Part shown: positions 3,391-9,094 of the stretch, in pieces | Position numbering within the stretch: position 1 is the stretch's first letter | How the letters are laid out: each line of letters opens with the position of its first letter | IMG/VR virus record: IMGVR_UViG_3300028388_001983 | Location: 1-64,000 of that record | Length of the DNA: 64,000 nt | Source: a virus | Direction: 5' to 3' (one strand) | Notes under the pieces: model-generated | Seen by the model: the letters and a program-made list of their open reading frames with translations, nothing else | What the model was told of the DNA's origin: nothing | Databases searched by the model: none | Translations under genes and position numbers: made by a program

Positions 3391-3545
3391 AATCTCCCCA
3401 CAAGACCCAGGTTTATAGTGATATAAATGCTTGCTGTTAGGCTACCGTCCGTCAATAGCAGAGGCGTTGTTAAAAAGGGTTCATAGTGCAACGTGATTAC
3501 TAATGGGAGGATAGCAAACCAGGAACCCTGCGTGGGGAGATTTTT
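3391..3545 (+). ncRNA. Structured RNA with enclosing helix, three inner hairpins and a pseudoknot
   Basis: This GC-rich island has no ORF. An 11-bp perfect helix closes it: AATCTCCCCAC (3391-3401) with GTGGGGAGATT (3532-3542), followed by TTT. Inside are TTTATA/TATAAA (3412-3417/3422-3427) with a GTGA tetraloop; TGCTGTT/AATAGCA (3432-3438/3454-3460); and GCGTTG/CAACGT (3464-3469/3489-3494). The loop of the third hairpin carries AGGGTTC (3476-3482), which pairs perfectly with GAACCCT (3523-3529) near the 3' end, making a 7-bp pseudoknot. I do not recognise a named RNA class; no B12-box, tmRNA tag or RNase P signature is seen. It may be a cis element for the gene at 3554 or a processed free RNA. 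The strand is inferred from the trailing T-tract and the neighbouring genes. Confidence 0.7.
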
Positions 3546-3553
3546 ATACTAAA

Positions 3554-3703
3554 ATGAAAAAAAAATACAAGGTAAAAGAAAAATGGGCATTCCCACATGA
3601 TTTTTCGATCTATGATGTGGTTAAAGGAAGCAAATGGTATGCTTCATTTGCCTTTAAAGAAGATGCTGAGGAATATGCAATGAATAAAAACAATGAAAAA
3701 TGA
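3554..3703 (+). CDS. Small hypothetical protein, 49 aa
   Basis: ATG at 3554 starts 9 nt after the structured RNA; TGA at 3701-3703 overlaps the next start as ATGA (3700). The peptide is MKKKYKVKEKWAFPHDFS followed by a segment ending AEEYAMNKNNEK. Charged, aromatic-containing, no membrane segment. The 4-nt start/stop overlap suggests translational coupling and supports it being real. Function unknown; it is the first gene that the RNA element could control in cis. Confidence 0.65.
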   Translation: MKKKYKVKEKWAFPHDFSIYDVVKGSKWYASFAFKEDAEEYAMNKNNEK

Positions 3704-4065
3704 ACGAAATTATTGAGGGCAATACACTCATTGCTGAATTTATGGGTGGTAAAGTTGTAGATAGTATATTTATATGTAATGAATCTACTGAAACTTATGC
3801 TGAAAAATTTTTACATCGTTATAATATTGCTTTAGCATTATATGACTCATCATGGGACTGGCTTATGCCTGTAGTTGAAAAAATAAATGATCTAGGATTT
3901 AGAACAGAAATACATAATAACTCTACTTTAATATTTCATGATGTTAAATTGGATGAAATTATAAATCCTCCATATGGATATGGTGAACAAGATAAATGGA
4001 TTGACATAACTTGGAAAGCAGTAGTAGATTTTATTAAATGGTATAATGAAAACGTTAAAACTTAA
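3700..4065 (+). CDS. Small phage protein resembling the phage ABA-sandwich family
   Basis: A 121-aa protein beginning MNEIIEGNTLIAEFMGGK, with SSWDWLMPVVEKI in the middle and a C-terminal VVDFIKWYN. This layout (LIAEFMG, then WDWLMPVVEKI, then a helix with FIKWY) recalls small proteins common in phages of Bacteroidota that carry a phage ABA-sandwich domain; the molecular role of that family is unknown to me. Starts with ATGA overlapping the previous stop and overlaps the next gene by 20 nt, so it is tightly coupled. Family assignment is from memory of sequence pattern, not a search. Confidence 0.6.
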   Translation: MNEIIEGNTLIAEFMGGKVVDSIFICNESTETYAEKFLHRYNIALALYDSSWDWLMPVVEKINDLGFRTEIHNNSTLIFHDVKLDEIINPPYGYGEQDKWIDITWKAVVDFIKWYNENVKT

Positions 4066-4657
4066 TATAAAAGAATATAATATATGGTTTACTTCTGATA
4101 CACATTTTAATCATAAGAATATCATTAAATATTGTGATCGTCCATTTAATAGTGTAAGAGAAATGGATGGTACTATGATAGAAAATTGGAACAATTTGGT
4201 AGAGCCTAATGATATAGTTTTTCATGCGGGAGATTTCTGTTTTGGACAATATAAAACTTGGAAATTTTTTACTGATGCATTAAATGGTAGAATTTATTTA
4301 TCTCAAGGTAATCATGATAAAGATAATAGTATTCCAAGAAATACCTTTGAAAGAATAGAACAATTCTACAATTTACTTATTCAAGGAGATGAAGAGATTT
4401 CACAAGGTCAAAGAATTACTGTATGTCATTATCCAATGCTTTCATGGTATCACTCTCATAGAGGATCATGGCAATTATTTGGACATGTACATGGTGCATT
4501 GACTAATACAAATTTAGCAGATGATGGATTTAATTTAAATGGAAAACTTACTCCCAATCAATTAGATATAGGTGTAGATGTCCATGATTTTGAACCTATA
4601 TCATATGAACAAGTAAAATTAATAATAACAAAACAAAACTTAAGAAAGGAGGAATAA
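4046..4657 (+). CDS. Calcineurin-like metallophosphoesterase
   Basis: A 203-aa metal-dependent phosphoesterase. The ordered metal-binding motifs are visible: SDTHFNHKN (DxH) near residue 17, GDF near 62, GNHDKD near 90, CHYP near 130 and GHVHG near 150. The short length and the DTHFNH opening match compact phage and bacterial members that hydrolyse phosphomono- or diesters; the substrate cannot be read from sequence. Starts inside the preceding ORF (20-nt overlap), so probably translationally coupled. A second, unrelated-looking member of the superfamily lies at 8375-9094. Confidence 0.87.
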   Translation: MKTLKLNIKEYNIWFTSDTHFNHKNIIKYCDRPFNSVREMDGTMIENWNNLVEPNDIVFHAGDFCFGQYKTWKFFTDALNGRIYLSQGNHDKDNSIPRNTFERIEQFYNLLIQGDEEISQGQRITVCHYPMLSWYHSHRGSWQLFGHVHGALTNTNLADDGFNLNGKLTPNQLDIGVDVHDFEPISYEQVKLIITKQNLRKEE

Positions 4658-7765: not shown

Positions 7766-8095
7766 ATGAAGTGTAAAAATTGTGGATATACAAAATTTAA
7801 GAAGTTATATTATGTACACTATACAGATAAATTAGACAAGAGCAAAAATTGTTATGCTGAGGTAGTACAAGTCTGTAGAAACTGTCTAAGTTTATCAGAA
7901 ATAGGTAAACCTGAACATTATATTAAATTTAATTATTACCGTCTTCATAGTGCTTGTAAAAACTTAGAAGATTATACACTAGTAACTCCATATAATCTAG
8001 ATAAGATAGTAAGAGAATCAGAACAAGATGAAAATATAATTAATACTGAAAATAAACCTAAAAAAGATTTTATCCGTTATACATTAAAAATTTAA
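7766..8095 (+). CDS. Zinc-ribbon protein, 109 aa
   Basis: Starts 2 nt after the polymerase gene. CKNCGYTKFKKL near residue 3 and CRNCLSLSEIG near residue 37 form a four-cysteine zinc ribbon; the remainder is charged with no recognised domain and ends in a basic tail. Being in the polymerase operon suggests a nucleic-acid-related role, but this is only context. No paralogue is obvious apart from the shorter zinc-ribbon protein at 4757. Confidence 0.65.
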   Translation: MKCKNCGYTKFKKLYYVHYTDKLDKSKNCYAEVVQVCRNCLSLSEIGKPEHYIKFNYYRLHSACKNLEDYTLVTPYNLDKIVRESEQDENIINTENKPKKDFIRYTLKI

Positions 8096-8374: not shown

Positions 8375-9094
8375 ATGATTAAAACGATTACAATACCAGA
8401 TTTACATGGCAAATCAATTTGGAAAGATGTTGATCCACATGAATATGATCAAATAATTTTTTTAGGTGACTATTTAGATGATTGGGATGTTTCTGATGAA
8501 TCTATGTTAGAAAATTTAAAAGAAGTTATTAATTTTAAAGAATTACATAAAGATAAAGTTATATTATTATTAGGTAATCATGATGTAGGTTATCTATATC
8601 CTATGTTTACTAAATTATTTAGAGCAACTAGATGTTCTGGATTTAGAAATAGTATGTATGAAGATGTTCATAAACTTTTGAATGATAATCGTTCTTTATT
8701 CCAACCTACTCACCAATTAAAAAATCATATATGGTCACATGCTGGAATTTCAGAACCTTGGTATGAAAATAGATTATTACCAGTATTAATCGGATTAGGA
8801 TTAGATCATGAAGATAATATAAATTTATCTACTAAAATTAATATCTGTTTTAAAACTGATGTTGAAGAATTATTTGATGTAGGATATATGAGAGGTGGAA
8901 ATTATCCTAATGGTGGAATATTTTGGGAAGATGCTACAGATTTAGTAAGTAGTCCTTATCCTAATATTCATCAAATAGTTGGACATACTAAGGGTAATTT
9001 CATAGGAAATGTGTATAATGATGATTTAAATAGTCATCTTACTTTTACAGATTGTCTAGATAAAAAAGTTGAATTTTATAAATTAGAGGTATAA
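8375..9094 (+). CDS. Calcineurin-like phosphatase (second metallophosphoesterase)
   Basis: A 239-aa protein with the ordered superfamily motifs IPDLHGKS (DxH, residues 8-10), FLGDYLDDW (GD), LLGNHDVGY (GNH[DE]), HIWSHAGIS (H) and IVGHTKG (GH). The order and the SHAG signature resemble Ser/Thr or bis(nucleosyl)-tetraphosphate phosphatases of phages such as lambda phosphatase, more than the compact enzyme at 4046. Substrate unknown; candidates are host phosphoproteins, nucleotide alarmones or nucleic-acid ends. Lies between two small unknown genes in the DNA polymerase operon. Confidence 0.87.
   Translation: MIKTITIPDLHGKSIWKDVDPHEYDQIIFLGDYLDDWDVSDESMLENLKEVINFKELHKDKVILLLGNHDVGYLYPMFTKLFRATRCSGFRNSMYEDVHKLLNDNRSLFQPTHQLKNHIWSHAGISEPWYENRLLPVLIGLGLDHEDNINLSTKINICFKTDVEELFDVGYMRGGNYPNGGIFWEDATDLVSSPYPNIHQIVGHTKGNFIGNVYNDDLNSHLTFTDCLDKKVEFYKLEV

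Follow-up and report, generated by a model that had tools for sequence, protein, structure and literature searches.

A compact structured RNA among the genes of a phage raises two questions: whether it belongs to a known class, and whether it acts on the genes beside it or elsewhere in the infected cell. The window (the whole 64,000-nt stretch of viral DNA analyzed here) carries such a pseudoknotted element, of about 150 bases, at positions 3391-3546. The initial annotation had described it as a compact RNA with a pseudoknot that fits no known class, and had offered a cis-regulator, a processed RNA or a packaged RNA as possible roles. Comparison with homologs in other phages supported the description and made cis-regulation look less likely.

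The element in the window

The window lies within a 73-kb viral record that also encodes a PHROG 11589 head protein and a PHROG 6547 portal; the phage probably belongs to the crAss-like lineage. The element has a ribonucleotide reductase (RNR) gene and a 108-aa ORF as its neighbors and ends approximately 8-12 nt before the start codon of a 49-aa ORF (ATG at 3554), a short gap that had been pointed out before. Two phosphoesterase-like genes are also found nearby, one at 4046-4657 with a match to PHROG 547 phosphoesterase and the other at 8375-9094, judged by eye only. No sigma-70 promoter was detected on the + strand near the element, in a scan that is uninformative for such phages.

Inspection of the sequence confirmed it as first described, with the perfect 11-bp closing helix and the perfect 7-bp pseudoknot at exactly the positions given in the initial annotation. 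The GTGA hairpin, the T-tract, the lack of an ORF and the raised G+C content were likewise as noted: no listed ORF of at least 40 aa covers 3391-3545 on either strand, and G+C reaches about 41% at the element versus about 18-33% in most nearby 150-nt windows. The parts of the element, named according to the family fold described below, are as follows:

3391..3546, + strand: whole RNA element, permutation type B, with its ends in helix P3 (sequence; type-C covariance model R1)
3391..3401, + strand: 5' strand of P3, the 11-bp closing helix (AATCTCCCCAC/GTGGGGAGATT); P3 is a hairpin in other members
3402..3411, + strand: J3/4, a conserved joining segment with the sequence AAGACCCAGG; its counterpart is AAGACMCAG in type A members and AAGACCCGAA in those of type C
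3412..3427, + strand: P4 hairpin TTTATA-GTGA-TATAAA (sequence); in type C members P4 is the terminal helix
3428..3433, + strand: J4/2.1, TGCTTG, likewise in Dismasvirus members
3434..3440, + strand: 3' strand of P2.1, CTG (3434-3436), and conserved TTAG; CAG/CTG is replaced by GAG/CTC in 6 members
3441..3446, + strand: 3' strand of P2, GCTACC; two-sided changes in 7/7 P2 columns
3464..3469, + strand: 5' strand of P0, GCGTTG, partner of 3489-3494; P0 covaries in the family, and its register in the window is slightly shifted
3472..3475, + strand: conserved A-rich strand ahead of P1, GAAnA in the family alignment
3476..3482, + strand: 5' strand of the pseudoknot P1, AGGGTTC (covariation)
3483..3488, + strand: ATAGTG; consensus RTAGTA in the family alignment
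3489..3494, + strand: 3' strand of P0, CAACGT (sequence; family covariation)
3509..3515, + strand: 5' strand of P2, GGaTAGC, with A3511 bulged, pairing with 3441-3446 (family covariation)
3516..3522, + strand: conserved AAAC and 5' strand of P2.1, CAG (3520-3522, pairing with 3434-3436; family alignment, covariation)
3523..3529, + strand: 3' strand of the pseudoknot P1, GAACCCT, pairing with 3476-3482 (covariation)
3532..3542, + strand: 3' strand of P3, GTGGGGAGATT, pairing with 3391-3401
3541..3545, + strand: T-tract after P3, a possible terminator tail (sequence), missed by a consensus terminator scan

In this fold P0 encloses the 5' strand of the pseudoknot. Single-sequence folding, a method blind to the pseudoknot, set the element only slightly apart from its shuffles (-48.3 kcal/mol and z -1.87, a value equaled by 7 of 200 shuffles), and the alternative hairpin that it proposed at about 3430-3468 is excluded by P2 and P2.1 of the family fold. 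The element was accepted as real because its homologs keep the pseudoknot with compensatory changes.

A phage RNA family in three circular permutations

BLASTN with the window element returned chance matches and a weak match in Bacillus phage Eldridge that later proved real. An exact scan of viral contigs with a 16-mer from the core gave 10 loci, among them five true relatives (L002, L004, L008, L010 and L011) and five chance matches (L003, L005, L006, L007 and L009). The true relatives have in common AAGGGnYC-RTAGTA ... CAAACCAGGRACCCTG ... GCTGTTAG, and the last of these motifs lies downstream of the pseudoknot in all five of them and upstream of it in the window.

Later members were found by patterned scans and by BLAST from new members, which brought the family to 33 distinct homologous cores in phages of Bacteroidota, Pseudomonadota, Bacillota and Actinomycetota. 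Among the member phages are T4-like, T5-related, Herelleviridae, Vequintavirinae, jumbo and Dismasvirus phages, together with the probably crAss-like phage of the window. These searches led to Microbacterium Dismasvirus, with 77 matching Microbacterium records, to Microbacterium jumbo phages, and to P100-like Listeria phages, with 54 Listeria records; individual inspection covered the 33 distinct cores and at most a minority of the other INPHARED records. Further members came from Vibrio, Klebsiella RaK2-type, Erwinia Hena1, Pectobacterium PM2 and T4-like Escherichia phages, from T5-related phages of Proteus, Klebsiella and Pectobacterium, and from Rhizobium, Bacillus Eldridge and Flavobacterium immuto phages. 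BLAST matches in Caulobacter CcrMagneto, Rhodococcus Tonitrus, Gordonia Doggs and MT835580 were discarded as chance. The search of 85k GTDB bacterial and archaeal genomes, done with two type-A patterns only, gave no real match, its sole match (L059, an archaeal MAG) being a chance one, and the family was found neither in plasmids nor in E. coli genomes. Hypothetical proteins are annotated over or against the RNA element at L070:2484-2585 and L047:1582-1737 and in NC_027399 and OR413349; these ORFs are probably spurious.

The family RNA, of about 85-150 nt, comes in three naturally permuted circular orders: type A is opened where P2 adjoins P0, type B in P3 and type C in P4. Type A comprises L002, L004, L008, L010, L011, L027 and L029-L032 and, among the named phages, Zooman, Dismasvirus, RHEph12, Va1, LP-048 and Eldridge; type B the window and L028; and type C L049-L058, RaK2, PM2, Hena1, G2469, PM135 and immuto. 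The covariance model R1, built from type C only, recovered the window element from the 73-kb record with E=1.8e-7 and the type B element of L028 with 5e-9. The permutations fall at the peripheral helices and the core is retained. A conserved protein-coding frame, named in the initial annotation as an observation that would count against an RNA, is ruled out by the circularly permuted order in the relatives.

Rotated to one order, the cores read P0a-GAAnA-P1a(AGGGnYn)-RTAGTA-P0b-P2a-AAAC-CAG-P1b-P3-AAGAC(M)C-P4-J-CTG-TTAG-P2b. All 33 share the pseudoknot P1 together with P2, P2.1 and P0, while P3 and P4 are variable peripheral helices. With variable loops removed, the covariation score of the 33 rotated cores was 0.600, versus 0.146±0.015 for shuffles (none of 500 reached the family score) and 0.07-0.14 for slid partners; 90.5% of the pairs were standard and 14 of 20 pairs showed two-sided changes. 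The signal remained strong when P0 was left out of the count. The compensatory changes proposed earlier as a check were thus seen, both sides of the pseudoknot and of helix pairs varying together in the homologs. Position 7 of P1 is C-G, A-U, U-A or G-C and position 6 is U-A or C-G, P2.1 alternates between CAG/CTG and GAG/CTC, and P2 covaries in all seven columns. In P0, the bases preceding GAA pair with those following AGTA, the first two pairs each in 27 of the 33 cores. Some members had been found through patterns containing P1b, CCAG or CTGTTAG, and the descriptor required partial pairing; the pairing of P2, P0 and P4 was absent from every search pattern, and most P1 variants came from members found by BLAST.

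P4 of type C differs in sequence in nearly every member, and in 8 of 10 members its pairing is spaced 7 nt from the CTG that follows and 11-12 nt from the preceding P1b (the exceptions are L055, at 9/12, and L070, with a longer P3 insert). Approximately 25 bases of the core are nearly invariant, and the invariant unpaired bases comprise GAAnA, RTAGTA, AAAC, TTAG and GACCC. GAA and AGTA flanked by P0 have what we take to be the make-up of a bulged-G (sarcin-ricin) motif.

Genomic context and comparison with known RNAs

One convincing copy per genome was present in 18 of the 18 member records searched. The element lies 1-11 nt from tRNAs in L004, L034, L049, L051-L054, L056-L058, L060, L067 and L068; the distances from its ends are 1 and 2 nt in L049, 3 nt in L067 and L068, 4 in L004, 5 in L060, 8 in L051, and 11 and 6 in L034. 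It is placed between annotated tRNA-Met and tRNA-Arg in G2469 and between annotated tRNA-Gly and tRNA-Glu in Hena1. In Dismasvirus it sits between a recombination directionality factor gene upstream and a hairpin-type terminator downstream, and in Eldridge it stands after RNR beta and before a terminator. In L002, L010 (where PolA is the neighbor) and L011 it is fitted tightly between genes, with neither a tRNA nor an obvious terminator. A tie to the RNR gene was dropped, as the RNR relatives L012-L026 are without the element. In L020, L021, L023, L025 and L026 inserts break the phage RNR gene at nearly one and the same point (about residues 285-309) and may be inteins or introns; in the window the gene runs through without a break.

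No Rfam 15 family matched the element at the gathering threshold in the window or the member loci tested, where only tRNA and tmRNA models matched, none of them at the element; relaxed E-values added only chance matches there. The tmRNA matches of about 80 nt at L029:2306-2384 (57.8 bits, just upstream of the RNA element) and L027:1703-1784 (55.6 bits) were read as minimal tmRNA-like or tRNA-like phage genes. As far as comparison with the accessible papers goes, the family appears to be new, the defining feature of no known class being recognized in it.

Like the family, ROOL and GOLLD are widespread, elaborately structured phage and prophage RNAs with no known function that are often located close to tRNA islands; however, they are nanocage-forming RNAs of at least several hundred nucleotides (PMC12286853), whereas the family is small, circularly permuted and, by the type-A patterns, not found in bacterial genomes. 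Their Rfam models did not match the element in the window or the member loci tested. The RNAs annotated in the tRNA clusters of T4 (RNA C and RNA D) and T5 (RNAI, RNAIII, RNAIV and RNA2H) are stable RNAs without an assigned function and, like the family RNA, small, about 100-170 nt. They were rejected as members: neither the T4 nor the T5 record matched the family models, even when the T5 tRNA region was searched without filters, and the core was not seen by eye. The annotated stable RNAs of T5 (L091:6285-6645, 7809-7980 and 8839-9084) stand outside the family and may be further orphan families.

The theta ribozymes, which are HDV-like, are also small pseudoknotted RNAs of Caudoviricetes phages beside tRNA genes (PMC10879173). 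The HDV topology is a nested double pseudoknot in which a P3 hairpin separates P2 from the second P1 strand, and it requires a catalytic C in J4/2; it was rejected, as only AAAC-CAG separates P2 from the 3' strand of P1 in the family. Theta ribozymes cut at the 5' end of P1, at most 5 nt from the tRNA 3' end; in the family the core is kept away from tRNAs by P4 in type C and by variable spacers, its distance to them is not fixed, and many members have no tRNA nearby. Introns also received no support: no Rfam model of a group I or group II intron matched the element in the window or the member loci tested, and the features on either side of it in annotated members are whole genes or tRNAs, each distinct from the other.

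In the P100-like Listeria phage CKA15, abundant and apparently non-coding RNAs lie near tRNA genes, and a bacterial Y RNA with Rsr has been proposed (PMC12282133). The family has a member in P100-like phages, but the CKA15 transcripts could not be mapped onto the element. The tRNA-like domain of Y RNAs (PMC12282133) was not seen in it.

Possible functions of the RNA

The reading that we favor, at a probability of roughly 0.47, is that of a discrete, stable structured RNA that would be released from a longer transcript and act in trans. The single copy, the unrelated neighbors and the release-ready ends point to such an RNA, and since a cis element would track a gene, the differing neighbors argue against one. 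The transcript would often bear tRNAs, and the RNA may be freed by the processing of these neighbors or at a terminator. Where the ends are 1-11 nt from tRNAs, ordinary tRNA maturation would release it; L002, L010 and L011 would need another route. The T4 and T5 stable RNAs, ROOL and GOLLD provide the precedent for stable RNAs in phage tRNA islands. Once released, the RNA would fold into a rigid core and might act in the infected cell on something universal among bacteria, with the ribosome, RNA polymerase, tRNA, the RNA-processing machinery or a defence aimed at these as candidate targets. The spread over phages of four host phyla suggests a partner that is universal, or none.

The chief alternative, which we regard as possible but doubtful, is that the family forms a new self-cleaving ribozyme class, carried by phages of four bacterial phyla in three natural circular permutations, and cuts phage transcripts at a site in its conserved core. 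Circular permutation of functional RNAs is rare, being listed for hammerhead, twister, 5S rRNA and group II introns, and self-cleaving ribozymes are the best-known case of natural three-way permutation (PMC10085705). Hammerhead and twister occur in every possible permutation, opened at each peripheral helix (PMC10085705), as the family is. Its size, its pseudoknot and its many invariant unpaired bases would suit a ribozyme, and theta ribozymes adjoin phage tRNAs (PMC10879173). However, one copy per genome, placed just before terminators or beside tRNAs that are processed already, makes little sense for cutting transcripts, and the type C core is held off both tRNAs by P4. No Rfam ribozyme model, hammerhead and twister included, matched the element in the window or the member loci tested, and the hammerhead core was not seen in the family.

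A structure that shields the 3' ends of upstream mRNA or tRNA precursors from exonucleases is distinctly improbable. The Dismasvirus and Eldridge members do stand at the operon end just before a terminator, and the two type B elements, those of the window and L028, carry a T-tract behind P3. Between tRNAs, however, there is nothing to protect beyond what tRNA structure already does, the conservation of loop sequences exceeds the needs of a roadblock, and type A, which opens the other way, would leave the 3' end in P2.

Still less probable is the cis-regulator, such as a riboswitch, of the downstream gene. The close approach to the start codon of the 49-aa ORF and a conserved, aptamer-like pseudoknotted core typical of riboswitches speak for it, but a riboswitch would keep one consistent downstream gene or pathway, and the downstream features vary with the phage family (tRNAs, terminators, convergent genes). 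The neighboring genes are not conserved, and therefore this option of the initial annotation now looks less likely; a scan of viral contigs for relatives of the 49-aa protein itself came back empty.

A chance structure in an A+T-rich genome, to which the modest folding z-score might have pointed, is already refuted by the comparative data, namely the compensatory changes in the 33 distinct cores with their unmatched covariation score, a descriptor without a single match in 1.27 Mb of randomised DNA, and the recovery of the window by a model trained on another permutation.

An RNA so conserved in its core, present once per genome and retained by phages that have few genes in common and infect both Gram-negative and Gram-positive bacteria, should be generally useful to a phage, and it would have to act alone or on machinery universal in bacteria. 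Natural circular permutation being rare, the family offers a new case for RNA evolution. With some of its members in T4-like phages of E. coli that are easy to work with, its function is open to direct tests.
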